64,000 nt of DNA from an uncultured Ruminiclostridium sp. (GTDB lineage Bacteria > Bacillota > Clostridia > Oscillospirales > Ruminococcaceae): contig CANRFO010000006.1 in assembly GCA_947629925.1 (NCBI GenBank), forward strand, positions 62,001-126,000, in the 5' to 3' direction. Positions 2,979-55,296 of the stretch are shown here, in pieces (position 1 is the first letter of the stretch; every line of letters starts with the position of its first letter). Made by a program: the position numbers and the translations under genes. The notes below the pieces were generated by a model that worked only from the letters and a program-made list of their open reading frames with translations, was not told the origin of the DNA and did no database searches.

Positions 2979-3038
2979 AAAAGCCTCCTTGAATTTATCC
3001 GTATCGTCTTTCAAAGAAGAAAGTATACGCATGATAGT

Positions 3039-3067: not shown

Positions 3068-3268
3068 GTGTTTGCGGCAGGTTTTTTGCTTCGCGGCAGA
3101 GAAGGGCGGGAATACTCGTTCGCACCGTATTTTTTGCCTTTTGCGGGGAAATAATACTCAAAGCGATACTGCGCGGAGAGCGGCATACGTCTTTTCAGGC
3201 GCTTTTTGCGCAGTATCTTCTTAAAAAACGCGGGGCGGTACGTCACGACATTGAGGCAGGTGCGGAAA

Positions 3269-10255: not shown

Positions 10256-10263
10256 GGATAAAA

Positions 10264-10293
10264 AAGCAGGTCTGACATTTTTCAGACCTGCTT
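10264..10293. terminator. Bidirectional rho-independent terminator
   Basis: A perfect 12-bp stem (AAGCAGGTCTGA / TCAGACCTGCTT) with a six-base loop, A-run on one side and T-rich tract on the other. It lies between the convergent glucan synthase and glycosyltransferase genes and can serve both. Confidence 0.9.
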
Positions 10294-10307
10294 GTTTTAT
10301 GATAAAT

Positions 10308-21347: not shown

Positions 21348-21383
21348 TTTTCATTGTTTTGCACGGGAAAAAGGTGGTATCAT
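21348..21383 (+). promoter_or_regulatory. P1: copy 1 of the TTTCATTGTTTTGCAC box with a -10 element
   Basis: TTTCATTGTTTTGCAC (21349-21364), then 13 bases, then TATCAT (21378-21383). The same 16 bases with the same 13-base gap to TATACT occur twice ahead of the phage-like cluster at 43 kb. The normal -35 hexamer is replaced by this box, which suggests an activator- or special-sigma-dependent promoter for the DUF1492-addB-addA unit. Confidence 0.7.
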
Positions 21384-24900: not shown

Positions 24901-25181
24901 AGGAGGCGATAAGAAAGGAAACAGGCGCCGACAGCAGAAAAAAATACGGCAGCATATACACTCTTGACGCGGGAAAGTTCCTGAAATTCCGCAGTCATAT
25001 CGAGCAGAACATAATCGTTCCCAAGGTCAGATCCCTTCTTGATGGGGATATAAGGGCGCTGCCGCTTCCCAACGAGAAAAAGCTTCCCTGCGAATACTGT
25101 CCGTTCAAGGCGCAGTGCGGCAACGGCGGAAAGAATGCGGCGGAGCTTTCACGGGAAGAGCTTGAGGAATTTGTCGTATGA
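21993..25181 (+). CDS. addB: ATP-dependent helicase/nuclease subunit B
   Basis: Subunit of AddAB, which processes double-strand breaks into recombination substrates for RecA, recognising Chi-like sites. About 1,062 residues, starting MTEIFYGEAGTGKT with a Walker A loop. The C-terminal nuclease has VMIYDYKTGK, and the iron-sulfur cysteines are present: one in FSCPFLYFCRYG and three in LPCEYCPFKAQCG, the split 4Fe-4S staple typical of AddB. I prefer the start at 21993, preceded by AAAGGAAAG; the in-frame ATG at 21972 overlaps the DUF1492 stop (ATGA). Coupling to DUF1492 is notable because addB is usually first in its operon. Confidence 0.94.
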   Translation: MTEIFYGEAGTGKTAAMFERIKELASKGEQCMLFVPEQFSFDTERAAYFAVGAENARFVKVTGFSKLARKILEKYKKARPCADDAVKLITMWKAVEKSRADFLFLNKEKNSSGLCRLMLKTVAAFRNGGVSPAQLRRSLEEQEGMDEGTADKSEDFLRIYEEYDKSLTQSLDDKLDDLSRAAALAEEYGYFKGLHLFFDDFDSFSAVQRRLLSAAVPQAESALFCLTCDSPKSRRAEFICVSKTAAEIAMLSPEVNYRRFSVPYREKGRDNTPVRLFSAKTPYEEAELIAAMIHHAVREEKLRYRDILILASRQEYEPILLSRLKKSGIPVFCDLPHPMTDKPVIGFVLQLLSALSFEGEELLSLAESGFKRVDGKLLPLNKAYMLRNAASAYELTPSRWQSGWSSDPCAELRPLEPIRKGVVEPLVKLKEKLLAAKDGAEFSAVFMEYLLDTEDIRSTFLGRSKAGEGGETDFLATDAQAGEEYSRIWDALSEAVSSIAYCLEGTKTSVEQYRSILEEILSGVNLANPPAVLDSVTVGDIERTRKASAKIVFIAGFNEGDVPRATSLQSVFTRGEREALVCAGLPVYDSDLVRWSKERYFAYRAMNLHGKRLILTFCRQDGGGNGKSIAKLPQTENIEPVRAEDIPTEYFLNTRDDLKTLLARVSGKDKELALEIEQILQEQYFSDGIKNAAELLSGKREMRISKASAEKLFGGAVYSPTRLEAAFSCPFLYFCRYGLKLREPSDNDPASPANIGSAVHLIMRLALEKGVNVGEMRDEELGLLASEAAGEAAEQMIHNDPSCPERTRAIYLSLVPAVYRMLRQARPSVKAGGFVPSAFEKQVSYVIKSDELPDGELKIAGTADRIDRLSADEGDYVMIYDYKTGKTVFSPNGAENGFNLQMLLYLFAECENAFPAGVGYIRAGEGTPIRTDSTVPVSLQEQTANEYEKQYISGAIFNSPRVLEAFDGTQEAIRKETGADSRKKYGSIYTLDAGKFLKFRSHIEQNIIVPKVRSLLDGDIRALPLPNEKKLPCEYCPFKAQCGNGGKNAAELSREELEEFVV

Positions 25182-25214
25182 AACGGCAGAAAATTACGGA
25201 AAGGAGCTGATGAT

Positions 25215-28200: not shown

Positions 28201-28562
28201 CGGTTGACGAGAGCGAGATACAGGCGTTTCTCGACAGCCCGACGGCAAAGCGCGCGGCAGGAGCCGACAGCGTTTTCCGCGAGTTCCCTCTTTTTACCAC
28301 CGTCAACAGGACGGGCGGCATCGTCGCTGACAAGGATGATCTTTCCTTTGTTCAGGGCGTTGCGGATATGTTTTTCGTGGAGGACGGGAAGATAGTCCTT
28401 GTGGACTACAAGACCAACCGAAACACTACCCCCGAAAAGCTGACCGCCGAGTATAAAGGACAGCTTGAGATATACAAAAAAGCCCTCACAGAAATGACAG
28501 GCATGGAGGTAAAGGAATGTATCCTTTACAGCTTCACCCTGAAACGTGAGATAAAGCTGTAA
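25215..28562 (+). CDS. addA: ATP-dependent helicase/nuclease subunit A
   Basis: The UvrD-type helicase and second nuclease of AddAB, 1,115 residues. Helicase motifs run in order: Q motif PTVEQKKAVEY, Walker A SASAGSGKT, AVTFTEKAAAEL, Walker B YIIVDEFQDSND, VGDVKQCIYSFRNA, LSQNFRSSENV, NLMTIHKSKGLQFPVVF and RLLYVAMTRAEEKL. The RecB-family nuclease follows with KIVLVDYKTNR. The start follows GGAAAGGAG, 33 bases after addB. The protein is slightly shorter than Bacillus AddA but all motifs are intact. A terminator closes the operon. Confidence 0.95.
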   Translation: MPSPTVEQKKAVEYRGERSAVVSASAGSGKTYVLVEHIVRLITDRENIVPADRIAAVTFTEKAAAELKQRLDRRISELLEQSPDDEFLRDQLIRLSGARISTISSFCLSLIQDNLRLLPLEEGFSIGEETQMKMLSDTALKKMFRRFYRDFSEEEKAYAAVRLGREKNISDAVLQLYEFLTNIPSGDEWAEEQLEIFRDPEKYREKYILKGREKAVRALDTAGAEAEAERLISLAPAGHREKLNGYFGALFGQIKAMSAAISCGDDQRLLTAVKNGAGRYPSLKNAADPLYVRLKEIRAAAEAARDRALSYTETLSRAEEDREECGRTFHLLYRLEQLYSEEYAALKREKKLADFGDMEHFALEAVRQGGGKGMFDYIIVDEFQDSNDIQYEIFRLLSENEKNLYFVGDVKQCIYSFRNANPEIFASLLKNKDYEKIFLSQNFRSSENVINTVNGIFGKNMPESFDGGSWEPMTAGRGIASCADNISELVVINSAPNDEGREASYVAARIKRMVEEGFTVHEKDAERPCRYGDFAVLTRKGTKSFLFRRAFEAAGIPYTAVGDKAFTDLIEVETAMALLGTALRPDDDAAAAAAMMSPVYGFTAEETAKVRLAEGTEVKEPLKRSLYANLAEMARVGCAPAEKGERFIKNMQLFRKTASNTVTENLLREMYEVTLLPELMSVGSKGEERRENLRLLLHYARSSPRPAEFLLRMRNIKRSRLEMPQAQPTEGGDAVNLMTIHKSKGLQFPVVFLSETNGKPNKSDLSDVFIFDRDGGVGITLCDRTKPVRAGTVSHALMAERLDEREKGEETRLLYVAMTRAEEKLIVTAECAVKPDKDGVTDEDRPPAAYKGNYLDFILTNGKEMFNTVRIYSDRPVGGIETRVTPAPVRRTDLSGVRERINTEYPYQNAVKTPAKFTATALGIEAGNGADEAAVSGAFYMGLPLFMKKDRPLTPKERGDVYHKVMENIDFSAESGRAELDRLLAEKTLNEAERGAVDESEIQAFLDSPTAKRAAGADSVFREFPLFTTVNRTGGIVADKDDLSFVQGVADMFFVEDGKIVLVDYKTNRNTTPEKLTAEYKGQLEIYKKALTEMTGMEVKECILYSFTLKREIKL

Positions 28563-43267: not shown

Positions 43268-43283
43268 TTGTTTGCGGAAAAGA

Positions 43284-43318
43284 TTTCATTGTTTTGCACG
43301 GGGCTTCCGTGCTATACT
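43284..43318 (+). promoter_or_regulatory. P2: copy 2 of the TTTCATTGTTTTGCAC box with -10
   Basis: TTTCATTGTTTTGCAC (43284-43299), 13 bases, TATACT (43313-43318). Within it GCACGG and CCGTGC form a perfect inverted repeat around GGCTT. It leads into a short leader with a 32-codon frame and a GC stem, then P3. Confidence 0.7.
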
Positions 43319-43343
43319 CCATAATGAGGAAAAAAAGGAAGAG

Positions 43344-43442
43344 ATGAGCTTGTGCCGCAAAGAAAACCGCGTCGGTGCGGCTTTTTGGTTTTCTCGGAAC
43401 ATTTCATTGTTTTGCACCGTAAATGTGTGCTATACTTCATAA
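43344..43442 (+). other. Short leader frame and hairpin between P2 and P3
   Basis: An ATG behind AAAAAGGAAGAG opens 32 codons (MSLCRKENRVGAAFWFS start) that end inside the P3 box. The same segment can fold into a stem, CCGC/GCGG followed by T-run, enclosed by AGAAAACC/GGTTTTCT. It could be a leader with attenuation or simply spacer; coding is doubtful. Confidence 0.35.
43402..43436 (+). promoter_or_regulatory. P3: copy 3 of the TTTCATTGTTTTGCAC box with -10
   Basis: TTTCATTGTTTTGCAC (43402-43417), 13 bases, TATACT (43431-43436), 32 bases before the GTG start at 43469. Copies 2 and 3 also share GTGCTATACT and CATAAT after the -10. This is the promoter closest to the head-tail genes. Confidence 0.7.
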
Positions 43443-43468
43443 TAGAAAAAAGCAGGGGAGGAAAAAGG

Positions 43469-43720
43469 GTGACGGAAGAATTTTTTCTGAAAAACAAGGA
43501 GCGCATATTTGCCTTCGGCGAATATTTTCTTAAAAAGCTGGAGGACAGGGAGCTTATGGACAAGCTTTTTGAAAAGGACGCGGAAAAGCCTGCGCGGGTG
43601 CTGAAGCTGCTTTTCGACAAGCTTGACAGCGCAAGACCGCAAAAGGAAAATCCCGCCCTCACCGCCATTATCCGAGCGGTGACCTCAGGGGGAGAAGAAA
43701 GAGATGACGAAGATGAATGA
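43469..43720 (+). CDS. First gene of the phage-like cluster, small-terminase position
   Basis: An 83-residue protein starting (as GTG) TEEFFLKNKERIFAFGEYFLKKL, helical, highly charged, ending in an acidic tail (GGEERDDEDE). The start is set by AGGGGAGGAAAAAG. Its place directly ahead of and overlapping the large terminase by 17 bases is that of a small terminase subunit, but I see no helix-turn-helix and the length is short. A terminase partner or DNA-loading regulator is therefore only a positional guess. Confidence 0.6.
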   Translation: MTEEFFLKNKERIFAFGEYFLKKLEDRELMDKLFEKDAEKPARVLKLLFDKLDSARPQKENPALTAIIRAVTSGGEERDDEDE

Positions 43721-44948
43721 AAAAAACAAAACGCCGCCTCTGTCACCGAAGCAGGAAAAGGTACTTTCCCTGCTGCGAAACGGAGGGCTGAAAAGACTTA
43801 ATATATTCGAGGGAAGCGTTCGTTCGGGAAAAACGTACGTTTCCCTTATTTTATGGGGCTTCTGGGTAGCGGTCAGGGGCGAGGGGCATTACCTTATGGC
43901 GGGGAAGACCCTCTGCTCCGTGAGGCGGAACCTTCTGGAGCCGCTCACCGAGATATTCGGGGAGGAAAACGTGCGCTATTCCGTTTCGGGAAAGGAAGCG
44001 TCGCTGTTCGGCATAAAGATACACCTTGAAGGCTGCGCCGACAGCAGGGCGGAGGGGCGCATAAGAGGCATGACCCTTGACGGGGCTTACTGCGACGAGC
44101 TGACTCTTTTCAATCAGGATTTTTTCAAAATGCTGCTGTCAAGGCTCTCAGCAAAAGGAGCAAAGCTTTTCGCCACCACCAACCCCGACCACCCCTGCCA
44201 CTGGCTCAAAACGGATTTTCTTGACCGTAAAGAGCTTGACCTGCTGGATATGCACTTCACTCTTGACGACAACCCCTATCTGGACCCCGACTATGTAAAA
44301 GCCCTTAGATCTGAATACAAAGGCGTTTACTATGACAGGTACATCTTAGGGAAATGGGTCGCCGCCGAGGGCAGCATCTACACCGATTTCACCGACGAAA
44401 TGATAATGTCGGAGGAGGAAACCAAGGAAGCGGAGGAACGCTGCGTATTCAAGACCGCAGGGGTGGATTTCGGCGGGAACCGCTCTGCAAGCGCGTTCGT
44501 ACTGGTCGGCTTTGACAAGGGCTACGACACGCTTTATATTCTGGACGAGTTTTACGACAGCGAGGGCAGCTCCGCAGAAACGCTCATAGAGGCGTTCGGA
44601 ATCATCTCACGCCGCTGGAATGAGGACAAAAAGCTTCGGGCGGTTTACTGCGACAGCGCGGAGCAGCTTCTTGTGAAAAGCTTCCGTCAGGCGGCGGAGA
44701 TACCTGTGAAAAATGCCCTTAAATCCTCTATAAACGGCAGGATAAGAATGTTCTGCCGTCTTATGGCAGGAGGAAGATTTAAAGTGAGCTGCCGCTGTGA
44801 AAAGCTGATAAGGGCGATAAAAACAGCGGTCTGGGACAGCGGCTCTCTCTGCGACAGCAGGCTCGACAACGGGACCACCAACATCGACTCCCTCGACGCG
44901 ATGGAGTACGCGGCGGAGCGGTTCGAGCGGGAGCTGTTCAGGTTCTGA
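43704..44948 (+). CDS. Phage terminase large subunit
   Basis: The DNA-packaging motor, 414 residues. The N-terminal ATPase has Walker A FEGSVRSGKTYVSL, Walker B GAYCDELTLF and the coupling motif FATTNPDHP. The C-terminal RNase H-like nuclease has TAGVDFGGNRSASAFVLVG, VYCDSAEQLLVKSF and NIDSLDAMEYA with the three metal-binding Asp. All catalytic residues are present, so packaging and cutting ability appear intact. It resembles PBSX/SPP1-type terminases. The protein is a usable candidate to tell headful from cos packaging by phylogeny. Confidence 0.93.
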   Translation: MTKMNEKNKTPPLSPKQEKVLSLLRNGGLKRLNIFEGSVRSGKTYVSLILWGFWVAVRGEGHYLMAGKTLCSVRRNLLEPLTEIFGEENVRYSVSGKEASLFGIKIHLEGCADSRAEGRIRGMTLDGAYCDELTLFNQDFFKMLLSRLSAKGAKLFATTNPDHPCHWLKTDFLDRKELDLLDMHFTLDDNPYLDPDYVKALRSEYKGVYYDRYILGKWVAAEGSIYTDFTDEMIMSEEETKEAEERCVFKTAGVDFGGNRSASAFVLVGFDKGYDTLYILDEFYDSEGSSAETLIEAFGIISRRWNEDKKLRAVYCDSAEQLLVKSFRQAAEIPVKNALKSSINGRIRMFCRLMAGGRFKVSCRCEKLIRAIKTAVWDSGSLCDSRLDNGTTNIDSLDAMEYAAERFERELFRF

Positions 44949-45025
44949 GACGGCGTTCGTTAAATCGGGGATAACTTGCGGCGTAAAGACGGAATATCCC
45001 CTTATTGACAAATCAGGAGGTAAAA

Positions 45026-46405
45026 ATGACCATCAGAAACATTCTTTCAAAAGCGGTTTTCCGAGGGAAAAATCCGCCGTTTGAGGCGGACGACAGCGTC
45101 CGCTCACACCTGCTGGAGCGGGTGGAGCTGTGGCAGAACATCTACGACGGGGAAAGCCCGTGGCGCTACGCGAGAAAAGGCGGGCTTGACGGCGGGTACC
45201 GAAGGGTAAGGTCGGTATCCGCGGCAAAAGCCCTTTGCAGCGAGCTTTCCGCCCTGTGCTTCTCGCAGCAGATGGACCTTCGCTTCAGCGATGAAAAGAC
45301 CGCGGAGTTCGTCCGCGGCGTGCTTCAGGACAACGCCTTCTGGAGCTGCTTCCCGCTGTTTCTGGAGAAAATGTTCGCCTTGGGCGGCGGGGTGATAAAA
45401 GTCTACTGCGAGGGTGAAAAGATCCGTCTGGACTATGTTCAGGCGCAGGGCTTTATCCCCACTCAGTACGACGAAAAGGGCGTTTACGGCGGAACGATCT
45501 TTTCCTCCTCATCAAAGGACGGAGAGGATTATCTTCTCGCTGAAACGCACAGCAGGACGGATTCGGGCTTCGTTGTGAAGAACAGGCTTTTCAAGCGCTT
45601 CAAGAACGGTGATTACAAAGAGGTCGAGCTGTCCGAGCTGTATCCCGACCTTGAGGCAGAGACAGCCATAAACGGGCTTCAGAAGCCGCTTTTCGTGTAT
45701 TTTCGCCCTGCCTGCTCAGGAAGCGGCGTTCTGGGAAGCTCGGTATTTGCTCATGCGGCGGACACCCTTGAAAGTCTGGACATCGTGTTTGACAGCCTTC
45801 AAAGGGAGTTCATCTTAGGCAAGAAGCGCATAATCGTTCCCACCTCCGCCCTTCGCGGCGAATACGGCAGGGACGGAAAGCTCCACAAGTATTTTGACGA
45901 GCAGGACGAGGTGTATCAGGCGTTTTCCCCCGACGACAAGGAGGAGCTGAAAATATACGACAACAGCGCCCAGCTCAGGGTCAGCGAGCATATAGAGGCT
46001 TTGGAACAGCTTCTTGACCTGCTTTGTATGCAGACGGGGCTGTCGGCGGGAAGCCTTTCCTACCACAGCTCCACCGCAAGCACCGCCACCGAGGTGGTCG
46101 CCCGCAACGACAAGACCTTCCGCACCAAGACCGCCCATCAGCAGCTTATACGGGAGGGACTTCTTCAGGTGCTGGAAAATATCGTGCTGCTAGCGGCGGC
46201 AACAGGAAAGCTCCCCTGCAAGGCGGCGGAGGATAAGCCCGTCATCACCTTCCCCGACAGCGTTTCCCGCGACAACAGCTCAAAAATAGACAACGCGGTG
46301 AAGCTGCTGAACGCGGGCGTTATCGACAAGAACAAGGCTCTGGCGGAAATATACGGACTTTCCGACAGCGAGATACAGACAAAGGAGGAAGAAGAAAATG
46401 TTTGA
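45026..46405 (+). CDS. Phage portal protein (SPP1 Gp6-like)
   Basis: Dodecameric ring at the capsid vertex through which DNA passes. The 459-residue protein begins MTIRNILSKAVFRGKN behind AGGAGG, shows the portal wing (LWQNIYDGESPWRY), a central beta region (GFIPTQYDEKGVYGG), and a long helical crown/stem (EHIEALEQLLDLLCMQTGLSAGSLSYHSS with TATEVVARNDKTFRT). The motif in which a Ser/Thr-rich segment is followed by ATEV is typical of Gram-positive phage portals. It lies 77 bases after the terminase and overlaps the next gene by eight bases. Confidence 0.88.
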   Translation: MTIRNILSKAVFRGKNPPFEADDSVRSHLLERVELWQNIYDGESPWRYARKGGLDGGYRRVRSVSAAKALCSELSALCFSQQMDLRFSDEKTAEFVRGVLQDNAFWSCFPLFLEKMFALGGGVIKVYCEGEKIRLDYVQAQGFIPTQYDEKGVYGGTIFSSSSKDGEDYLLAETHSRTDSGFVVKNRLFKRFKNGDYKEVELSELYPDLEAETAINGLQKPLFVYFRPACSGSGVLGSSVFAHAADTLESLDIVFDSLQREFILGKKRIIVPTSALRGEYGRDGKLHKYFDEQDEVYQAFSPDDKEELKIYDNSAQLRVSEHIEALEQLLDLLCMQTGLSAGSLSYHSSTASTATEVVARNDKTFRTKTAHQQLIREGLLQVLENIVLLAAATGKLPCKAAEDKPVITFPDSVSRDNSSKIDNAVKLLNAGVIDKNKALAEIYGLSDSEIQTKEEEENV

Positions 46406-46670
46406 CGAAGAAATAAAAGAGGAGTTTGAAGCGCCTGCGCAGGAGCAGCCGCAGACCGACGCGCCTCAGAACGAGAAAAACAAGGAAAACGAGTGCAGCT
46501 GCACCTGCGAGCTTGCGGAGATAAAGGAAAAGCTTTCGGCGCTTGCCGCCGAGAACAAGGCGCTGAAGGAGGAGCTGGAGGCGTTTAAAAAGCTTCCCCG
46601 CTTCAGCGTTAAGACTTCCCCGGAGGACAGCGGCGCAGACGCCATAAAAAAGATCTTCAGGAAGAGATGA
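46398..46670 (+). CDS. Scaffold-like coiled-coil protein
   Basis: A 90-residue acidic protein: disordered Gln/Pro/Asp/Glu N terminus, a Cys cluster (ENECSCTCELAE), a leucine-heptad coiled coil (IKEKLSALAAENKALKEELEAF) and a basic C-terminal helix (ADAIKKIFRKR). Placement between portal and capsid, the coiled coil and the basic tail fit a very short scaffolding protein, whose basic end binds the capsid. No head protease is encoded next to it. Confidence 0.7.
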   Translation: MFDEEIKEEFEAPAQEQPQTDAPQNEKNKENECSCTCELAEIKEKLSALAAENKALKEELEAFKKLPRFSVKTSPEDSGADAIKKIFRKR

Positions 46671-46738
46671 ACCATGGTTCCCAAAGCGGCAGCTTTGAGA
46701 TAAAAACGGCAGTTCAACTGCCCGAAAGGAGAAAAGAC

Positions 46739-47638
46739 ATGACCAACACAAACGAGTACGCCAAGCTCTTTCAGGGAGAGCTTGACCGTCAGATCACCGA
46801 GAGCGCTACCTCAGGCTGGATGGAGGACAACGCGGAGCAGGCGGTTTACGCCGGCGGCAAGGAGATAAAGCTCCCTGCGCTGTCCATGCAGGGTCTGGGG
46901 GACTACGACCGCGAGGAAGGCTACACAGGCGGCGCAGTGACCTTCAGCTATCAGACGTTCACCATGAGCCAGGACAGAGGCAGACGCTTCCGCCTTGACG
47001 CCATGGACGTGACTGAGGCGGATTTTCAGGTGACTGCCGCCAAGGTAGCGGAGGAGTTCCAAAGGAAAAAGGTCATCCCCGAGATCGACGCTTACCGTTA
47101 TTCCGTTCTTGCGGGAAAGGCGAAGATAACCGACAGCTACACTCCCGACGCCGCCACCGTTTACGGCAAGCTTCTTGACCAGCTTGGAAAGGTGTACGAC
47201 ATCACAGGCGGCGAGATCCCTATCGTCATCACCATGTCAAGACCCGTTTACGACCTGCTTATGAACAGCGGCGAGATAAACAGGACCCTTGAGACCACAT
47301 CATTCGGTCAGGGCGAGCTTACCGTTGAGGTGAAATCCATCAACGGCGCGGCGATCATTCCCGTTCCCAGCGCCAGAATGAAGAGCAGCTACACCTTCTC
47401 CGCAGACGGAGACGGCGGCTTTGCTCCTGCTGAGGACGCAAAGGGCATAAACTGGATAATCTGCCCCAAGACCGCTCCCGTTGCAGTTTCAAGGACGGAC
47501 AAGGTGAAGATAGTTCCTCCCGAACAGAATCAGTTTGCCGACGCGTGGGACATCGATTACAGAAAGTACCACGACCTGTTCGTAGGCGACGAGGCTGCAA
47601 AAGCCATCGCCGTATCCATGGAACCCGAAGCCGTTTAA
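46739..47638 (+). CDS. Major capsid protein
   Basis: A 299-residue protein that starts MTNTNEYAKLFQGELDRQIT behind AAAGGAG. It has the spine-helix like region (EAEFQVTAAKVAEEFQ-type, here ADFQVTAAKVAEEFQRKKVIPEIDAYRYSVL) and P-domain strands expected for an HK97 fold, and lacks the roughly 100-residue N-terminal delta domain. The internal start is chosen because the longer frame has no ribosome site. It is the only gene in the cluster of suitable size at the expected place. Confidence 0.85.
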   Translation: MTNTNEYAKLFQGELDRQITESATSGWMEDNAEQAVYAGGKEIKLPALSMQGLGDYDREEGYTGGAVTFSYQTFTMSQDRGRRFRLDAMDVTEADFQVTAAKVAEEFQRKKVIPEIDAYRYSVLAGKAKITDSYTPDAATVYGKLLDQLGKVYDITGGEIPIVITMSRPVYDLLMNSGEINRTLETTSFGQGELTVEVKSINGAAIIPVPSARMKSSYTFSADGDGGFAPAEDAKGINWIICPKTAPVAVSRTDKVKIVPPEQNQFADAWDIDYRKYHDLFVGDEAAKAIAVSMEPEAV

Positions 47639-47696
47639 GCTCGGATCACAGACGGGCGGGAAACGGGAGGGAAAACAGAAGAAAGGGGAGAGAGAA

Positions 47697-48047
47697 ATGA
47701 TCCTGACAACGGAGGAATACAACGCGCGGGGCTTTCAGGGCGGCGAGAACGAAGCGGAGTGTGAAAAGGCGCTGACGCGGGCGGAAAAGCTGATAGATAT
47801 TCTCACAGGCGGAAAGTGCGGCGATAAAAACCTGAACGATGAGCAGCTGGAAAATCTGAAGTACGCCGTCGGCGCTCAGGCAGAAAAAATACTGCTTTGC
47901 GGAGGTCAGCCCGTTTCGGGAAGAACGGTCATAGGAGATTTTTCCTACACCGACGAGGGAGAAAAGGGCGAAAGCATATGCCCTCTCGCGATGACGGTAC
48001 TGAAGCTGGCGGGACTTTACTGCTCCGCCGTAAAAAGCATACGATAA
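47697..48047 (+). CDS. Head-tail connector protein
   Basis: A 116-residue, mostly helical protein (TTEEYNARGF, EAECEKALTRAEKLIDILTGGK, LKYAVGAQAEKIL, CPLAMTVLKLAGLYC) of the Gp6/Gp15 adaptor type that forms a ring beneath the portal. The pattern of an N-terminal EY-x-x-x-GF followed by four helices is typical in this position of Gram-positive siphophages. It lies 58 bases after the capsid gene. Confidence 0.78.
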   Translation: MILTTEEYNARGFQGGENEAECEKALTRAEKLIDILTGGKCGDKNLNDEQLENLKYAVGAQAEKILLCGGQPVSGRTVIGDFSYTDEGEKGESICPLAMTVLKLAGLYCSAVKSIR

Positions 48048-48064
48048 GGAAAGGAGCCGCAAAG

Positions 48065-48397
48065 ATGAATATTATCCCTATCCCCTCACGGCTTCTTACC
48101 GACAGCGCCGTGCTGCTCGTTCCCGACGGAAAGGACGTTTTCGGGGACAGGTACAAAGAGGTGAAGCTGGAAAAGGTCCGTATCTGCTTTGAGAAAAAAG
48201 TTCGCCTGAGCAGTCACAACACGGTGGACACAGGCGGCGGCACTCTTTATTTCGACTGCATGAACTCCCTCCCCGCAGGGACGGAGTTTGACACAAAGAT
48301 GAAGCTCAGGATAGGAGAAAACCGTTTCCGCATCGCCGCCGCCAAGGCGGTAAAGGCGGAAAGCGGCGTTCACCATTGGGAGCTTATCTTTATATGA
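48065..48397 (+). CDS. Minor capsid protein 1 (head closure)
   Basis: A 110-residue beta-rich protein, MNIIPIPSRLLTDSAVLLVP start, with GKDVFGDRYKEVKLEKVRI and a C-terminal HHWELIFI. It fits the Minor_capsid_1 family, a head-closure (SPP1 Gp16-like) component. The start follows AAAGGAG. It overlaps the next gene's longer reading. Part of the conserved run of minor capsid 1, 2, 3. Confidence 0.78.
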   Translation: MNIIPIPSRLLTDSAVLLVPDGKDVFGDRYKEVKLEKVRICFEKKVRLSSHNTVDTGGGTLYFDCMNSLPAGTEFDTKMKLRIGENRFRIAAAKAVKAESGVHHWELIFI

Positions 48398-48414
48398 GTC
48401 GGGGAGCTGATGAA

Positions 48415-48744
48415 ATGGACGTAGTGAAAGTGAACGCCGACCTCGGTCTTACCTGCGGGGAAATACTCAAAAAGGCGGCTTCGGCGCAGGTAAAAGTGAC
48501 CGAAGCGGCTTTTCGGGACTGCACAAAATATTGCAAAAAGGATACGGGCAGACTTATGGAAAGCGGACAAACCAAGCCTTCAAGCGGCATAATGACATGG
48601 AACACCGAGTACGCTAGACGAGCCTACTACACGGGTGCGCCCGACAAAAGCAAGAACCCTTATGCCTCTCTCATGTGGGCGCACAAGGCGGCGGAGGTAA
48701 ATCGGGAAAGGTGGAAAGCCATCGTGGAAAAGGAGCTTTTATGA
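48415..48744 (+). CDS. Minor capsid protein 2
   Basis: A 109-residue protein starting MDVVKVNADLGLTCGEILKK, then a helix ending in DCTKYCKKDTGRLMESG, the pattern of the HK97 Gp10-like/Minor_capsid_2 family in which a K-x-x-T-G-x-L turn is central. I set the start at the ATG behind CGGGGAGC; an ATG at 48394 overlapping the previous stop is an alternative. It overlaps minor capsid 3 by four bases. Confidence 0.77.
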   Translation: MDVVKVNADLGLTCGEILKKAASAQVKVTEAAFRDCTKYCKKDTGRLMESGQTKPSSGIMTWNTEYARRAYYTGAPDKSKNPYASLMWAHKAAEVNRERWKAIVEKELL

Positions 48745-49121
48745 TAGATGAAACAACTCTTATAAGGGAGCTTACGCAGGCGCTTTCAGCCGTCACTTCC
48801 CTTACCGTTTCCGCCGACAGAGCCGACGGGGAATGTATGACGCTGCGGCTTGGCGGCGGCGAGGACGGGGAGAGATTTCTGGACGGCGGACGGCGTCGGG
48901 TGATACCCCTTCTTATCCTCACAAAGAGCATTGACGGAGAAAAAGCTCTTTCCGACATTTGCAAAGCCGTTGAGCTGCTGGAAGCGGAGCCGCCCCGAAG
49001 CGTGCTTCAGGCGGTCATCACCTCTTATCCCCAACTTGTTGACAGGGGCGAGGACGGGGCGATCTATGAGGCGCAGGCGGAGCTTTCCTGCTATGAAGAA
49101 GGAACAAGGAGGATTTTATGA
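48741..49121 (+). CDS. Minor capsid protein 3 (tail terminator-like)
   Basis: A 126-residue alpha/beta protein (MIDETTLIRELTQALS start; DGGRRRVIPLLILTKS strand; AVELLEAE helix; ELSCYEEGTRRIL end) of the Minor_capsid_3 type, related in fold to tail terminators that close the end of the tail tube. It starts in the stop codon of the preceding gene (ATGA) behind AAGGAG, and its own stop overlaps the tail tube start, so four genes in a row are coupled. Confidence 0.76.
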   Translation: MIDETTLIRELTQALSAVTSLTVSADRADGECMTLRLGGGEDGERFLDGGRRRVIPLLILTKSIDGEKALSDICKAVELLEAEPPRSVLQAVITSYPQLVDRGEDGAIYEAQAELSCYEEGTRRIL

Positions 49122-49552
49122 TTCTTTTAAACAACGAGATAAAAGCTTATCTCATGATCGGCGGGAGCGACGAAGCGCCTGTCTGGGGCGACCTTGGCAA
49201 GGCGTTCAAGTCGGTGACGCAAAGTCTGGGCGAGAGCAAATACACCGCCTCTTACCTTGCGGACGGCGGATTTTCCTCCAGCGAGGTAACGGGACTGAGC
49301 TTTCAGTTGACTCTTACAGGCGACTATATCAAGAAAGACCCCGTTATAAAGTATATTTTTTCGGAAAATGTGGTCTACGGCGTGGGCGAGGCGCGCAAAA
49401 GCAAGCTGAAGCTGGTCCGTGACGGCACCGAGATACAGTGGGGCGTCACCCTGACAAAAATATCCGAGGACGGCGGCGACGCCAACGAGCCTGACGAGGT
49501 GACGCTGGAGCTTTCAGGCAACGGAAGACCGACGGTGTCCGCTGCCGAATGA
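49118..49552 (+). CDS. Major tail (tube) protein
   Basis: A 144-residue beta-rich protein starting MILLNNEIKAYLMIGGSDEAP. Alternating strands such as EVTGLSFQLTLTGDYIKKDPVIKYIF and KSKLKLVRDGTEIQWGVTLTKIS fit the tube-protein fold, and the position between tail terminator and Gp15-region genes is right. It would stack in hexamers to form the tail tube. Assigned by fold pattern and order; overlaps minor capsid 3 by four bases. Confidence 0.78.
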   Translation: MILLNNEIKAYLMIGGSDEAPVWGDLGKAFKSVTQSLGESKYTASYLADGGFSSSEVTGLSFQLTLTGDYIKKDPVIKYIFSENVVYGVGEARKSKLKLVRDGTEIQWGVTLTKISEDGGDANEPDEVTLELSGNGRPTVSAAE

Positions 49553-49578
49553 TAAAAACAGGGAAAGGAAAGACCTGA

Positions 49579-49908
49579 ATGAAGCTTAAACGAAGCGTTT
49601 TCACCCAAAGGCTCACTCTCGGCAAAAAGCGGCTGAAGGTGAAGATAGACGGGGAAAAAGCCATAGTCTGCCTCACCGAAGCGGCAAGGGAGGTCAGCGG
49701 CGGAGCTGACCCCGCCGCCGTCGCCGCCCAACTTTTCACCGATATTTTCGGCGTTGAGGCGGCGAGAGAGATACTTGCTTTTTACGGCGGGAAAAAGGGC
49801 GAAGCGGCGCAGCGCCTTCTTCCCCTTCTTCTGGGCAGGGTGCTGAAAAAGGCGGCGCGCTGTGAAAAGATAAAGCAAAAGGCAAGAGCGAAGGCGCTCA
49901 TATCTTAG
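49579..49908 (+). CDS. Probable tail assembly chaperone
   Basis: A 109-residue basic protein: two N-terminal strands (LTLGKKRLKVKIDGEKAIVCLTEAAREV) then helices ending in a Lys/Arg-rich tail (KKAARCEKIKQKARAKALIS). It lies between the tube and Gp15 genes, where tail chaperones are found. I saw no slippery sequence for the ribosomal frameshift that usually joins the two chaperone frames. Confidence 0.55.
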   Translation: MKLKRSVFTQRLTLGKKRLKVKIDGEKAIVCLTEAAREVSGGADPAAVAAQLFTDIFGVEAAREILAFYGGKKGEAAQRLLPLLLGRVLKKAARCEKIKQKARAKALIS

Positions 49909-49931
49909 GCGGACCGCGGACGGAGGGAACA

Positions 49932-50540
49932 ATGCAGACAAGGCTTTGGAAATATTTCGGGAAAGGGCTTCCCCCTTGTAAAGCAGGCGGCTTTAAGGCC
50001 GACCCGCGAAGCGGCAGGGTGCTTCGGGCGCTTGCCGTTATAGAGGACGGAGAGCTTTCTCCCCGCGTAAAGACAGATTTCGGGCTGAAGCTTCTTCTCA
50101 AGCCGTTTTCGCGGTTCAGGGCGGCGTTCCTGCCCTATGAAAAGCGCCGTGAGCTTCTTGATAAGATCCTGACTGCGCTTTGCGGAAAAGGCGGCAAGGG
50201 CGGCAAAAGGATAATTTCCTTTACGGCGGACAGCGGGCTTATTTACACCGCTTTGCTCCTGTGCTACGGGATAGACCTTTTAAAAAAGGACGTGGATTTC
50301 AGGCTTCTTCCCTGCCTTATCGGGGGCATTGATGAAAGCACGCGGCTTTACCGCGTGATGGAGATACGCGCCGCGGAGATACCGCCGCTGAACAATGCCG
50401 ACGGCGAGTATGTAAGACAGCTCATGAAGCTTAAAGCGGCGTATGCCCTTGATGAGGACGACAGCTTCAGCGGCGGCATGAACAGGCTTTTTGACAGCAT
50501 ATCGGGCGGCGTCGGACCGCCACGGGAAAGGAGCCGTTAA
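49932..50540 (+). CDS. Phage Gp15-family protein (second chaperone position)
   Basis: A 202-residue helical protein with VDFRLLPCLIGGIDESTRLYRVMEIRAAEIPPLNNADGEYV in the C-terminal half, the recognisable Gp15 pattern of Listeria/Lactobacillus-type siphophages (an F-x-x-L followed by T-x-L-x-x-V-x-x-I-R). Gp15 genes always precede the tape measure. The stop overlaps the tape-measure start by one base. Confidence 0.78.
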   Translation: MQTRLWKYFGKGLPPCKAGGFKADPRSGRVLRALAVIEDGELSPRVKTDFGLKLLLKPFSRFRAAFLPYEKRRELLDKILTALCGKGGKGGKRIISFTADSGLIYTALLLCYGIDLLKKDVDFRLLPCLIGGIDESTRLYRVMEIRAAEIPPLNNADGEYVRQLMKLKAAYALDEDDSFSGGMNRLFDSISGGVGPPRERSR

Positions 50541-51301
50541 TGGACGGACAAATAGTTTATCAGGTGAGGGTGGACAGCAGTAATGTGGCTTCTGACCTTG
50601 AGGCGGCAGGGTCAAAGATAAACAGCGGCACATCAACGCTCATAACCATCGGACAACAGGCTGCTCAGCGCATAGGAAGCGCTCTCACCTCTTTTTTCGG
50701 CGCTCAGGATTCGGCGATGACGCAGATGCTGTCGTCGCTGACCTCAGGCTTCACAGCCCTTTCGGGGAGCGCAGGCGGAGCGGCGACCGCGCTGGCGCCG
50801 CTCACGGCGGGGATACGGACGCTTCTTGCTTTGGACCTTAACAAGCTGTTATCCTTTTTTTCTCAGGTCTCGTCTATCGAGCTTGGAACAGCGGCGGCAA
50901 ATTCGGTGGCGGCGGGAGCGGCTTCGGTGCTTTCTGCGGCGGCGGCAAAGAAAAACAGCGTAACATCATCGGGCGGCGGAAAGACCACCGTCGCCCGTTA
51001 CAGAAAGGGCGCCGAGTATATCGAAAGGGACAAGCTTGCCTTCCTGCACAGGGGAGAGGCGGTGCTGACCGCGGCGGAAAACGAAAGTTTCCGCGCCATG
51101 GGCGGACTTGAGGGAGTGGCTATGGCGGCCGCAGGACGCCCTGCGTATGCGGCGCAGACGGCTGCCGTTCCCGCCGCTTCTTCCCCACAAAATCAGAACG
51201 TAAACGTAACAGTGGAGCTGGACGGCTATCAGATGGCAAAGGTGATGGCGACCGCCACAAACGACCTTAACCGCCAGCTTAATACCAGAGTCATAAAGTG
51301 A
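50540..51301 (+). CDS. Very short tail tape-measure-like protein
   Basis: A 253-residue protein. The N terminus (MDGQIVYQVRVDSSNVASDLEAAGSK) has the beginning usual for tape measures of Gram-positive siphophages; a hydrophobic Ala/Gly/Leu segment (GGAATALAPLTAGIRTLLALDL) follows, and the end (EYIERDKLAFLHRGEAVLTAAENESF, then VTVELDGYQMAKVMATATNDLNRQLNTRV) matches tape-measure C termini. The long helical repeat region, often 500-1,500 residues, is missing while both ends remain. At about 0.15 nm per residue the tail would be under 40 nm. No transglycosylase or peptidase domain is present. Confidence 0.78.
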   Translation: MDGQIVYQVRVDSSNVASDLEAAGSKINSGTSTLITIGQQAAQRIGSALTSFFGAQDSAMTQMLSSLTSGFTALSGSAGGAATALAPLTAGIRTLLALDLNKLLSFFSQVSSIELGTAAANSVAAGAASVLSAAAAKKNSVTSSGGGKTTVARYRKGAEYIERDKLAFLHRGEAVLTAAENESFRAMGGLEGVAMAAAGRPAYAAQTAAVPAASSPQNQNVNVTVELDGYQMAKVMATATNDLNRQLNTRVIK

Positions 51302-51314
51302 GGAGGGACAGTCC

Positions 51315-51671
51315 ATGACAAGCGAACTTTACTTCGGGGAGCTTAAAGTTCCCGCGCTTCTCGGCTATTCGGCGGACAGGGACTGCCGCAAAATAAAAAA
51401 AGAGTATAACGCCAACGGCGATATGCTCATAGATATGGTGGCAAGGAAGCTGACGCTGACGGTAAAGCTGGGACGGCTCACGGCACAGGAGATGAAGGAG
51501 CTCCAGACCGCCACGCAGCCTGTGTTCTTCCCCGTCACCTTTTTTGACCCCATGAAAGGCGAGACCGTCACCGCTCAGTTCCACCTTTCGGAACAGCCCG
51601 CGGAGCTTGCCTCGGTGGTTGGGGGAGCGCCGAGGTTTGAGGAGCTTAAACTGGTGCTGGAGGAAAAGTAG
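51315..51671 (+). CDS. Small tail protein (distal-tail position)
   Basis: A 118-residue beta-rich protein, MTSELYFGELKVPALLGYSAD start, with MLIDMVARKLTLTVKLGRLTAQEMKELQTA and FFDPMKGETVTAQFHLSEQPA. It lies where a distal tail or tail-completion protein is expected. The strand-turn pattern recalls small phage proteins that decorate the tape-measure end; I do not recognise the family. Start follows GGAGGGAC; five bases separate it from the next gene. Confidence 0.65.
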   Translation: MTSELYFGELKVPALLGYSADRDCRKIKKEYNANGDMLIDMVARKLTLTVKLGRLTAQEMKELQTATQPVFFPVTFFDPMKGETVTAQFHLSEQPAELASVVGGAPRFEELKLVLEEK

Positions 51672-51676
51672 CGGAT

Positions 51677-53614
51677 ATGGTTGAGATAAGCGAAAAATAC
51701 AAAGAGCTTGCCACAGCGGGAGGCAGGCTTCCCTTCTGCGTCATAAAGGCGGGGGACAAGACCTTTTTTGACGACAGCATAAAGTCGTTTCAGTTTCAGG
51801 ACGTTGTATTTTCAGAGGAGCTGACCTTCGGCACCGCCTGTTCCAACCGCTTCCACTTTGAGCTGAACACAACGGAAAACATTCCCCTTTCCGCCGAGAT
51901 AAGACCTTATATCGGCTTCGGGGAATATTCGGAGGAAGCGGAGCTTTGTCCTCTGGGCGTGTTTTACATCTCCAAGCGCTACCGCAGGCGCAGCAGCTTT
52001 TCAATAACCTGCTACGACAGAATGTACCGCCTTGAGGACGAATACAGGAGCGAGCTTAATTTTCCCGCAGACTCGAAGGAGATACTCCGTGAGATATGCG
52101 AAAAATATTCCCTTGAATTTGAAGGTGAAGCGGGAAGCTACACCTGTCCCATGCCTCAGTCGGGAGAAACGGTGAGGAACATTCTGGGGTACCTTGCGGG
52201 ACTTGACGGAGCGAACGCGGTATTCGACCGCAGGGGAAAGCTCTGCTTCAGGCAGATGAAGGACGAGGGCTTCACCGTCACAAGAAGCAGCTACACCGAT
52301 CTGGATATAAAGCTGGACCCTATCACGGTGGAGAAGATAGTGGTAAAAAACGACGAGCAGACCATAGTAAAAGGCGACGGCAGCAAGCTCGGCACCTATG
52401 AGATATACAACCCCTTTGCTTCCGAAAGGACGGCAAGCATCATCTTCAACACTTTCGTGGGATTTTCCTACTACGGTCTTGAGCTGGATATGCAGGGGCT
52501 TCCGTTTCTGGAGGCGGGCGACATCATAACCGTTCAGAACGACGGCGACGACGGCCTTTTCAACGCGGTGATAGGAGAGCTGGACTTCACCTACGACGGG
52601 AGCTTCTGGTGCAGGCTTGTGTCCCGCTCAAAAAATCCTGTTCAGGATTCGGCGGACAGAAAAGCCGAGGAAGAGATAGTACAGCAGGTCTCGCAGGAGC
52701 TTAGGACCGTTTATTACAACTACCGCAGCGAACGTGACCTTGTTCTGGGAAACACATTAACATCTCTGGCGTCAATAGACATCGAGGTGCTTCAGGAAAC
52801 GTCGGTCACGGTTGCCGCGCAGCTTCAGACAAGGTCGCTTTCCGACTGCACCCTGACGCTGACCTACACTGTGGAGGACAAGGACACGCCTCCTGAGCTT
52901 CAGGCAACGATGAAAGCGGGAGAAGCTTATCCCCTGTGCCTTCACAACTTTCTCCAATCGGTAAGGGCAGGCTATGCCACGATAAGGATATACGGAAAGG
53001 TTTCAGGCGGCACGGTGGCGTTCCCGAAAGGCGGGATAATAATGACGGTGAGCGGTCAGTATCTTGCGGAAAGCGCGATAAACCGTTCCCCCAACAGAAC
53101 GATATATCAGGGCTTTTCCGACCTGCACGGCGGGAAGCAGCCCGTCCGCAATATCGCTTTTCAGGACACTGTTTACGAAAATGTTCAGGTGCCTTTGCAG
53201 CGGACGCCTGCGGAAAGGATACTCTTTTACCGCAAGCCAAGGGAATATCCTATACGCATTTCCGACAACGGATATGCGCCTAAGGGCGTACAGGAGGCGG
53301 TCATTTATTCAGATGACAACGTGTTGTATGCAAAGCTGACCTTCTTCAATCCGCCGAAAACTTCGGACGCTTCGGCGCTGGCGGGAGCCTTCAAGGTGGT
53401 CGCAGTGTTCAGCGACGGCGAGCAGGATTACGGCATAAGCGAGGTGCAGTGGGACGGGAACACAGTCATGACCCTGACCATTATCGGCACATTCGTGGGA
53501 ACTGACGAGGTCTACGTTGATTATGACGAAGCAAAGGGCGACCTTGCCGACGGATTTTCGGGAAAAAAGACGGCAAGCTTCCGCAAGCAGGCGCAGAAGG
53601 AAGGGCTTGTATAG
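51677..53614 (+). CDS. Tail hub/tip protein
   Basis: A 645-residue protein. The N-terminal 330 residues look like a Gp27/Gp44-type hub: FCVIKAGDKTFFDDSIKSFQFQDVVFSEELTFGT, a repeated beta domain (CPLGVFYISKRYRRRSSFSITCYDRMYRL), DSKEILREICEKYSLEF and LPFLEAGDIITVQNDGD. After a helical linker (EEEIVQQVSQELRTVYYNY) the C-terminal half is beta-sandwich repeats that may bind receptor or cell wall. No peptidase motif typical of tail-associated lysins is seen. Confidence 0.72.
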   Translation: MVEISEKYKELATAGGRLPFCVIKAGDKTFFDDSIKSFQFQDVVFSEELTFGTACSNRFHFELNTTENIPLSAEIRPYIGFGEYSEEAELCPLGVFYISKRYRRRSSFSITCYDRMYRLEDEYRSELNFPADSKEILREICEKYSLEFEGEAGSYTCPMPQSGETVRNILGYLAGLDGANAVFDRRGKLCFRQMKDEGFTVTRSSYTDLDIKLDPITVEKIVVKNDEQTIVKGDGSKLGTYEIYNPFASERTASIIFNTFVGFSYYGLELDMQGLPFLEAGDIITVQNDGDDGLFNAVIGELDFTYDGSFWCRLVSRSKNPVQDSADRKAEEEIVQQVSQELRTVYYNYRSERDLVLGNTLTSLASIDIEVLQETSVTVAAQLQTRSLSDCTLTLTYTVEDKDTPPELQATMKAGEAYPLCLHNFLQSVRAGYATIRIYGKVSGGTVAFPKGGIIMTVSGQYLAESAINRSPNRTIYQGFSDLHGGKQPVRNIAFQDTVYENVQVPLQRTPAERILFYRKPREYPIRISDNGYAPKGVQEAVIYSDDNVLYAKLTFFNPPKTSDASALAGAFKVVAVFSDGEQDYGISEVQWDGNTVMTLTIIGTFVGTDEVYVDYDEAKGDLADGFSGKKTASFRKQAQKEGLV

Positions 53615-53717
53615 TCAAGATCGTATTATCCCCGTCTTTTCGGCGGCGGGGATATGTCGCCCCGATATTTTCACAGATACACGGCGGCGTCCTTATTGAA
53701 GATGAAAGGAAAAAGAT

Positions 53718-55163
53718 ATGCTAAAAGGAAGATCCACAATAAGTCTTTATGACGCGAAAACAGGGAAAAAGCTGTCGGAGCAGACGAATACCAACATGGT
53801 CACGGACGCTCTTGATGTGCTGTCAGGGTGCAAGGACAAGCTGAATCTTATGGGCTGGTGCAGGGAAGGAATGGCTATGTCAGGCACTTATGGAAGATAT
53901 TACGGATTGAGCCCGTTCAACGCTATGGTCCCTCTCGCAACATACGCCTTGGGCGGCGTTTTGCTCTGGGACAACAACATCACCGAAAACCCCGGCATAG
54001 TCGCGCGTCCCAAGGGAGTAAACGAGGTGGGACACGCAGGCAGCGAATACGCAGGCGACGATATTTACCAAGGAAGCTACAATGCCAACGAAAGCGGTCC
54101 GATAGAGGGCGGTTATCGTCATGTCTGGGACTTTGACACCGATAAGGCGAACGGCACGATAAAGTGCCTTTCCCTCACCTCTCAGCACGGAGGCACCGTA
54201 GGTCATCACTTTAACGGAGAAAACACAAAGGGCAGCCTTTTCAGCCATTGTTATTTTCACGAAGGAGATACCATACGCAATCTCAGTTATAATGACTGCT
54301 ATATTTCAATGGGCGACGGACCTGAGGGCGCAAAGCTCGGAAGAGCTTTTTATATAAAGAAAAACGGCGACGGCAGCCTCAGAGTTTATAAAAGATACCA
54401 GACTTCGGTTTTTTACTTTGATATTGCAGATCCCACAAAGGTCCCCATTGCAACAGCTACTCAGAATATACCCGCCACGGTGACGCTTCCCTTGACTCTT
54501 GAAAACAAGAATAACTCTTTATATGTTTATCAGGGTCAGATGCATGAGATCGGATCGTTGAACAATTCCACCCTGAGGCACAAGATATATTCCATGACGG
54601 GACAGCTGATAAGCAGCCGTGAGATCACTATTCCGATAGCATTGGGAAATTACAATAGTTTTTACTCAGCCGCCGTATACCGCGACGGTTACTATTACTA
54701 TTTTACGGGAAACAGCATTTCTGCAAACAGAAAATTATGCAAGACAGACGAAAAGGGGACTTTGCTGAAAGAATGGGAAAATATACCTATTGGCGCGGGC
54801 GGAGTAATAATAGACGAACATTCGGGAAATATCGTGTGGAACGGTCAGGCAGACAGCAACACAAGCAGTACGGCAAAGGAAGTATATATCATATATCCCG
54901 ATGATCATGTGGCGCCGAGTTATGTGACGTCAGACTTTATCAGCTGTTCAAACGGCAATATGTCGAACGACAAAACATGGCAGTTCGTAAAATTTGACGA
55001 TATGTGCACGCCCTTCTGGTATGCCAGCGACGGCGGATACAGCTTCAGGCTCATTCCCGCGATAATGTCGACCTATATTGCCACTATAAACAACCTTGAG
55101 GTTCCTATTGTGAAAACCTCCGCTCAGACCATGAAGATAGTCTACGAAATTTACGAGGAATAA
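53718..55163 (+). CDS. Putative tail fibre / receptor-binding protein
   Basis: A 481-residue protein starting MLKGRSTISLYDAKTGKKLSEQTNTNMVTDAL, an adapter-like opening. The body is strand-rich, with repeated short blocks like GSLRVYKRYQTSVFYFDIADP, GSLNNSTLRHKIYSMTGQLI and NRKLCKTDEKGTLLKEW that resemble propeller blades. The last gene of the cluster and AT-richer than those before it, which is normal for host-range genes that are swapped. The start follows ATGAAAGGAAAAAG. No catalytic motif was recognised. Confidence 0.7.
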   Translation: MLKGRSTISLYDAKTGKKLSEQTNTNMVTDALDVLSGCKDKLNLMGWCREGMAMSGTYGRYYGLSPFNAMVPLATYALGGVLLWDNNITENPGIVARPKGVNEVGHAGSEYAGDDIYQGSYNANESGPIEGGYRHVWDFDTDKANGTIKCLSLTSQHGGTVGHHFNGENTKGSLFSHCYFHEGDTIRNLSYNDCYISMGDGPEGAKLGRAFYIKKNGDGSLRVYKRYQTSVFYFDIADPTKVPIATATQNIPATVTLPLTLENKNNSLYVYQGQMHEIGSLNNSTLRHKIYSMTGQLISSREITIPIALGNYNSFYSAAVYRDGYYYYFTGNSISANRKLCKTDEKGTLLKEWENIPIGAGGVIIDEHSGNIVWNGQADSNTSSTAKEVYIIYPDDHVAPSYVTSDFISCSNGNMSNDKTWQFVKFDDMCTPFWYASDGGYSFRLIPAIMSTYIATINNLEVPIVKTSAQTMKIVYEIYEE

Positions 55164-55221: not shown

Positions 55222-55296
55222 GCCTCCATAGTTAAACGGATATAACAAGCCCCTCCTAAGGGTTAGTTATCGGTTCGATTCCGGTTGGGGGTGCCA
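55222..55296 (+). tRNA. tRNA-Arg (anticodon CCU)
   Basis: A 75-base cloverleaf. The acceptor GCCTCCA pairs with TGGGGGT (one terminal G-U and one internal G-U), the anticodon stem AGCCC/GGGTT holds the loop CTCCTAA giving CCU, the T-arm has GTTCGATTC and CCA is encoded at 55294-55296. It reads the rare codon AGG. It follows the phage-like cluster and has its own promoter and terminator (55307-55333). Confidence 0.93.

Follow-up and report, generated by a model that had tools for sequence, protein, structure and literature searches.

A putative gene transfer agent of siphovirus origin with genes at several loci in an uncultured Ruminiclostridium sp.

Why would a bacterium keep an intact set of phage head and tail genes with no integrase, replication or lysis genes seen beside it? 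Such a cluster lies at 43469–55163 (+ strand) of the window, the whole 64,000-nucleotide stretch analyzed here (positions 62,001 to 126,000 of contig CANRFO010000006.1, assembly GCA_947629925.1, uncultured Ruminiclostridium sp.). The genome holding the window (G000) is a 2.37-Mb draft of 44 contigs and is 99.75% complete; G, C and L numbers designate genomes, contigs and loci. The element is probably a gene transfer agent (GTA) inherited vertically, derived from a siphovirus that became fixed in the host chromosome, with a regulon spread over several loci. We read it so because the operon is intact, a lysis cassette and a candidate activator exist elsewhere, one promoter box stands before all three, the genes are under purifying selection and co-diverge with the host, and related genomes keep terminase and structural genes at separate loci.

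Gene content and composition

The open reading frame (ORF) table and family searches define a compact siphovirus-type operon of 16 intact genes with a coding share of 97%, flanked on both sides by housekeeping genes (Table 1). A preliminary description had counted fifteen intact genes in siphovirus order; order and intactness stand, and the count becomes 16 with the first gene, g1. Its 83-amino acid product is a candidate small terminase by position and predicted helices. The structural model is helical (mean predicted local distance difference test, pLDDT, 75; predicted template modeling score, pTM, 0.49), and no Pfam or PHROG family match was found. The same description held that the catalytic residues of the large terminase (TerL) are kept. 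An alignment of six homologues bears this out: an RSGKT motif, a DE pair and aspartates that we take to be of the nuclease type are present throughout, with one row beginning within the first motif at a chosen start. The composition is host-like, as also claimed, with a GC content of 0.536 in the cluster versus 0.517 in the remaining window, and third-position GC of 0.55–0.71 in cluster genes versus 0.64–0.67 in eight host genes. The closest phage capsid, from a Clostridioides phage, is 47% identical.

No integrase, replication, holin or lysin genes were seen beside the cluster in ORF tables read by eye, with family searches covering part of the window ORFs. By the same tables, the cluster lacks the integrase, repressor, replication and lysis genes that a temperate prophage carries in one excisable unit. 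The earlier claim that phage life-cycle genes are missing thus holds for the surroundings of the cluster, but a candidate activator lies elsewhere in the window and a holin-endolysin cassette on contig G000:C20.

Conservation and selection in close relatives

Three relatives, G005, G029 and G035, have all 16 genes in uninterrupted frames, with alignments spanning 92–100% of the window proteins. The order in G005 and G029 is that of the window: cluster, tRNA-Arg(CCT), an 82-amino acid gene, sigma and anti-sigma genes, spoIIR, rlmL and PBP1A. G035 is rearranged; the cluster still touches tRNA-Arg(CCT), but on the opposite side of the PBP1A block. The locus had been placed between pgm and tRNA-Arg. 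Its tRNA-Arg side recurs in relatives, and pgm was rejected as a conserved neighbor. Repeat-like noncoding DNA was seen by eye between, not within, the cluster genes of G005 and G029 (L034 7330–8170 and 9800–10640; similar in L035).

Among 35 other genus members searched with TerL, identity was 75–78% in these three and 58–61% in four more (G020, G023, G027 and, in part, G012), of which only G020 has the full cluster. Matches in G007, G030 and G031 sit in apparently ordinary prophages, and those in G015 and G016 are distant; all five genomes were rejected as members.

Between G005 and G029, the cluster genes have synonymous divergence (dS) of 0.09–0.44 and ratios of nonsynonymous to synonymous divergence (dN/dS) of 0–0.285 (TerL 0.021, capsid 0.015, tail tube 0.062, fiber 0.285; the distal tail value comes from 58 residues only). 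Four neighboring host genes have dN/dS of 0.05–0.15, and their dS overlaps that of the cluster. In comparisons with G000, dS is near or above 1. These values indicate that the cluster is under purifying selection; a test of dN/dS was among the checks that the preliminary description had proposed.

The fiber protein is 80% identical between G005 and G029 and the other 15 cluster proteins 92–100%. A fast-evolving fiber is expected of a weapon, and a domesticated killer particle (PBSX-like or tailocin-like) made against competitors, with packaged DNA as a by-product, has to be weighed; passages of PMC12946183 discuss PBSX as such a case.

Lysis cassette, promoter box and candidate activator

Genome G000 has one PF05105 holin, on contig 20 (G000:C20), with a GH25-SH3 endolysin directly after it; the cassette sits between two-component system genes and fba. 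Orthologous cassettes occur in G005 and G029; for G035 the orthology was seen on the fba side. Holin identity is 73–82% in these three species and ≤60% elsewhere. No holin match was found at E<1e-8 in the next-nearest species by PBP1A (G001, G008, G016, G033), where TerL is absent or ≤49% identical. A prophage-like tail end with a fiber-gene homologue, a PF05105 holin and an NlpC/P60 lysin was also seen in G029 (L323 5609–11862, G029:C6).

One promoter box links the loci. Upstream of g1 in four species (G000, G005, G029, G035) it has the form TTTCATTGT[AT]TT[GT]CAC followed by a −10-like hexamer, and in all four the same box precedes the holin on another contig. The window has three matches at ≤3 mismatches, two before g1 and one before the activator gene, versus none in 100 shuffles. 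In 246 kb of clade DNA, made up of stretches chosen around these loci and hence biased, the pattern has 16 matches: 14 before g1, the holin or the activator, and 2 unexplained, at a single orthologous site of G005 and G029. Related boxes before g1 in seven more genomes (G020, G443, G444, G446, G023, G027, G442) look intermediate by eye. Matches of the 16-base box in viral contigs are scattered, among the matches listed, and uninformative. From the shared box we infer that operon, lysis cassette and activator act in concert.

The candidate activator matches PHROG 36 (transcriptional regulator) and PHROG 248 (transcriptional activator), and Pfam only below the cut-off; we presume it to be RinA/ArpU-like. 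The genes behind it, which we take by sequence recognition to be addB and addA, probably share its transcript. A box stands before the activator in G000, and in G005 the corresponding site is one mismatch from a box variant. Activator homologues precede addB in G005 (62% identity) and in the distant G020 (44%), so that the arrangement occurs in 3/3 cluster genomes examined (G000, G005, G020) versus 0/4 informative genomes without a window-type cluster (G001, G008, G010, G022). Six further stretches were uninformative or nearly so, with addA lacking an adjoining addB (G002, G011, G015) or contigs ending near addB (G016, G006). In G027, another activator homologue immediately follows a homologue of PF05105-type holins within DNA that looks like prophage (L340 1483–2347).

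Split form in related genomes

Scanning bacterial genomes with the capsid alignment yielded 68 loci. Gene maps show that 38 of them are reduced structural clusters without terminase, tail tube or full tape measure; as far as contigs reach, these hold portal, scaffold, capsid, adaptors, distal tail, tail tip and fiber genes. At least one of seven conserved housekeeping neighbors accompanies 30 of the 38, and both phoH and ybeY accompany 23. The terminase is found elsewhere. Full-length TerL (E<1e-192) is present in 21 of 24 reduced-cluster genomes searched; the remaining three have two TerL fragments at contig ends (G421), a prophage gene only (G418) and none (G441). All 17 stretches examined from the 21 genomes contain a solo g1-TerL pair with no other cluster gene recognized within 14–20 kb. 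The two loci lie on different contigs or, in G428, on a single contig at a distance of about 70 kb.

The window box has a relative in these genomes, the direct repeat TGCAG-N5-TGCAG. It has 39 matches over 870 kb from 49 loci, of which 28 stand before the structural operon (28/32 loci), 10 before g1 (10/17) and 1 elsewhere. The 28 include two before the capsid gene (L143, L145), two with a short ORF call between (L161, L164) and one where the portal start is called upstream of the repeat (L146). In two split genomes, an activator homologue followed by an XRE-type gene was seen at a distance of about 5 kb from the solo terminase pair (L238 3707–4114, −; L244 15736–16056, +), without a box. In G432, the solo pair has a holin gene and a GH25 lysin gene some 5.5 kb away. 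PF05105 holins of G423, G428, G432 and G435 were rejected as split-form lysis genes; they adjoin prophage-type tail genes (L325 and part of L326 were left out).

The tail is reduced in these genomes. The major tail protein has no match in 23 of 24 reduced genomes, and the sole match is on the contig of a prophage-type terminase. A small gene of 44–51 residues before the distal tail gene resembles the tape-measure C-terminus: when 1176 ORFs were searched with a model of 12 such genes, the four window-clade tape measures came first (E 7e-5 to 7e-4; next 5), and the reverse search, which is weaker, places small genes at ranks 1–16 of 7626 ORFs (E 0.004 to 0.11; 19 loci in all). In ten reduced loci the gap of ≤27 bp is too narrow for such a gene. 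The tape measure of the split form is cut to about 50 residues or gone. An intermediate, L154 (G442), has one operon that includes the terminase, no tail-tube match and a PF05105 holin at its end.

Tailocins keep the tail and lose head and terminase. The split lineage does the opposite, having lost the tail-tube gene and most of the tape measure while keeping capsid, scaffold, portal and terminase, and this makes the killer particle introduced above an improbable explanation despite its fast fiber. Because the tail-tube gene was lost while terminase and portal were retained, DNA packaging would be the selected function.

Inheritance and distribution

Capsid, portal, TerL and rpoB were obtained together from 25 of 30 candidate genomes. 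Mantel distance correlations were 0.88 (capsid-TerL), 0.85 (capsid-rpoB), 0.86 (TerL-rpoB) and 0.89 (portal-rpoB), and 0.74, 0.71, 0.75 and 0.85, respectively, in the 17 split genomes alone; none of 5000 permutations reached any of these values. TerL, capsid and rpoB trees share 14–15 of 22 splits (null maximum 3 in 1000 replicates). In all three, the split genomes form a group with G442 next to it, and the four window-clade species form another; the disagreements concern the order inside the window clade and G444. The terminase phylogeny, a comparison proposed earlier, is thus largely congruent with rpoB, and the element appears to co-diverge with its host, with trees that largely agree.

In 396 family genomes, TerL (E<1e-150) was found in 9 and the capsid (E<1e-100) in 10, all 9 being common to both and one having the capsid only. 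The cut-offs were set to leave out prophage relatives, and several of these genomes had already been used in other comparisons. Four contigs of a viral collection have a capsid identity >53%: one is bacterial locus L172, two have recombinase inserts in the cluster and one is a 4.9-kb fragment. No phage replication genes were seen in the part of these contigs available.

Could the cluster be a prophage that became defective only recently, or an integrated element's head-tail module, left intact by chance? We judge this very improbable. Phage-derived genes, broken copies in some relatives and an adjoining tRNA gene would fit, but several species share the same site and gene set, dN/dS is well below 1 and the trees are largely congruent. 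Genes on other contigs stand behind the same box, terminase and structural genes are maintained separately in related genomes, and the cluster is on the 5′ side of the tRNA, which is not the usual integration side. The lysis cassette, split forms, activator and boxes argue most strongly that it is not a prophage.

Equally slight is the chance that the cluster is a phage satellite, or a helper-dependent particle exploiting prophages of the same genome. Its capsid, tail and terminase genes are its own, neither integrase nor excision genes were seen beside it, and it co-diverges with the host; in favor of a satellite are the ordinary prophages of several relatives and a second terminase gene (PF03354) in G000 itself, perhaps of an ordinary prophage (G000:C24, L001).

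Interpretation

The GTA reading joins these results. Passages of PMC9662315 define GTAs as particles formed of tailed-phage-derived proteins that encapsidate mostly random host DNA and deliver it to other cells. The GTA genome is fully endogenized, often over multiple loci, is not or not fully packaged since the head is too small, and is mostly inherited vertically, co-diversifying with the host. Three of these six features are recognized here. The element probably works like a GTA. Terminase, portal, capsid and tail homology indicates phage-derived particle proteins (evidence of a kind accepted in those passages). Operon, lysis cassette and activator lie apart, as does the terminase in related genomes. 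Vertical inheritance and co-diversification are seen, with losses in some lineages and partial tree disagreement. The other three (mostly random host DNA as cargo, a head too small for the element's genome, and delivery to other cells) would be properties of the particles.

The activator would switch itself on in some cells and then turn on the operon and lysis cassette. The candidate small terminase and TerL would load headfuls of whatever DNA is present, lysis would release short-tailed particles, and these would deliver the packaged DNA to relatives. Judged from the 253-amino acid tape measure, the tail would be about 40 nm long. AddAB, encoded behind the activator, may aid repair in donors or recombination in recipients. 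In a wider form, we give about equal weight for and against a gene transfer system that arose independently in clostridia: one activator of phage descent would tie capsid production, lysis and AddAB into one regulon, and stepwise evolution would have led from a one-operon tailed particle to a tail-tube-less particle with the terminase supplied from another locus.

The suggestion in the preliminary description that selection keeps particle production gains support from the intact genes and apparent purifying selection, and is extended by the split forms and the shared box. The outcomes it had named against itself, namely a strain-specific cluster, an integrase with attachment sites, or neutral decay, were not seen in this clade.

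Several observations weigh against a GTA. The element is known here from genes alone, with particles, packaged DNA and transfer as their presumed consequence, and such data do not by themselves separate GTAs from defective killer phages. Some copies are damaged: the clusters of G023 and G027 have interruptions behind TerL and behind the scaffold gene, the G012 capsid gene is interrupted, and metagenome contigs L380 and L381 have inserted recombinases. At L258 (G406; 1815–10365), a window-type cluster starts at the scaffold gene, and small terminase, TerL and portal are not at the locus. Distribution is patchy, with the capsid in few family genomes (see above). The nearest sister species lack a window-type copy, and G008, G016 and G033 have 45–49% TerL homologues on short contigs. 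Absences in G016 (76% complete) and G001 (86% complete) are soft. The small-terminase identity of the g1 product draws on position and predicted helices, and the activator-addB association on a small sample; the G020 activator copy has no clear box. The DNA scanned for boxes was biased to these loci, so their genome-wide frequency could be higher. A perfect box also lies antisense into a lipoprotein-like gene at orthologous sites in G005 (L054 17410, −) and G029 (L055 19293, −), with no target gene recognized.

A separate observation concerns the capsid gene of the split type. In genome SIG524 it is interrupted at codon NWLIC, with the 16 bases TTAACTGGCTTATCTG at both insert ends (L180 10710–10725, L207 294–309); a second genome has the same right end at the same capsid codon (L206 35–50). 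The sequences look as if the capsid gene may serve an element as attachment site.

Table 1. Positions of the head-tail operon, promoter boxes, candidate activator and neighboring genes in the window
Feature	Coordinates	Strand	Evidence or remark
Promoter box TTTCATTGTTTTGCAC-N13-TATCAT before activator gene	21349..21383	+	
Candidate activator, 149 aa (amino acids), phage transcriptional-regulator type	21526..21975	+	PHROG 36 E 5e-20, PHROG 248 E 6e-8
addB-addA (presumed recombination nuclease)	21993..28562	+	17 bp after activator
Promoter box 1 of head-tail operon	43284..43318	+	Exact match
Promoter box 2 of head-tail operon	43402..43436	+	Exact match
g1, candidate small terminase, 83 aa, all-helical prediction	43469..43720	+	Immediately upstream of TerL, in the solo pairs as well; no family match
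Large terminase (TerL)	43704..44948	+	Family searches, alignment
Portal	45005..46405	+	PHROG 533 E 5e-103
Scaffold-like coiled protein	46398..46670	+	Weak matches, position
Major capsid protein	46739..47638	+	PHROG 422 E 3e-96
Head-tail adaptor	47697..48047	+	PHROG 541
Minor capsid 1 / head-tail adaptor	48065..48397	+	PF10665
Minor capsid 2	48412..48744	+	PF11114
Minor head / tail completion protein	48741..49121	+	PHROG 913, weak, E 0.0075
Major tail (tube) protein	49118..49552	+	PHROG 820 E 1e-22
Small tail gene, chaperone position	49579..49908	+	Position; no family match; conserved in relatives
Gp15-like tail protein	49932..50540	+	PF06854
Short tape measure, 253 aa	50540..51301	+	Weak match E 0.036, position, C-terminus similar to small genes of relatives
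Distal tail protein	51315..51671	+	PHROG 1194 (unknown function), position
Tail-associated protein (tail tip)	51677..53614	+	PHROG 6616 E 4e-36
Fiber / receptor-binding-like protein, fastest evolving	53718..55163	+	PHROG 19291 (unknown function); function by position
tRNA-Arg(CCT), conserved cluster neighbor	55222..55296	+	

Comparison with known systems

PBSX of Bacillus subtilis is chromosomal and defective and packages host DNA; the window element is likewise chromosomal and defective and is presumed to package host DNA. The window element differs in that no sign of killing was seen for it and in that tail genes are reduced rather than kept in its relatives. No description of the element was recognized in the open-licence literature, among the matches listed.

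RcGTA of Rhodobacter capsulatus likewise has siphovirus-type head-tail genes in a cluster that begins with a small terminase gene; it is multi-locus and mostly inherited vertically (PMC6854486, PMC9662315, PMC7296036). Its host belongs to a different phylum, which makes an independent origin likely. Where RcGTA has GafA, the window element has a phage-type activator with AddAB behind it, and in relatives of the window element the terminase has moved elsewhere and the tail-tube gene is lost.

Of the systems published, FpGTA of Faecalibacterium prausnitzii, described in passages of PMC12946183 (2026), is the nearest. Both occur in gut Clostridia. FpGTA has a 10.5-kb structural operon with terminase, portal, scaffold and capsid genes, a holin and an endolysin in a second operon, and a possible small terminase without an obvious DNA-binding domain; its operon I is in all 12 Faecalibacterium genomes examined (PMC12946183). 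By the same passages, FpGTA is most likely podovirus-like and keeps the terminase in its structural operon. The window element has a major tail protein, a tape measure, a proposed promoter box and a candidate activator, FpGTA being compared by description only. Compact podovirus-like clusters among non-phage genes were also seen in three 1.2–1.9-Mb genomes of another family (L261, L262, L263), with a small gene, TerL, scaffold-like, capsid, portal-like and tail genes. Their capsid is homologous to that of the window element and their gene order is different; they are possibly a second GTA-like family, similar to FpGTA.

Few GTAs are known outside Alphaproteobacteria, and GTA-like DNA packaging was recently measured in gut clostridia (passages of PMC12946183). 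The route from phage to GTA has so far been mostly inferred. The relatives described here give candidate steps (full tailed cluster, tail-tube loss, terminase separation), and most forms retain a recognizable promoter box. A sequence test for multi-locus GTAs is suggested, in which phage genes that share one box are looked for at separate loci, and gut clostridia gain a GTA candidate of a second, tailed kind beside FpGTA.

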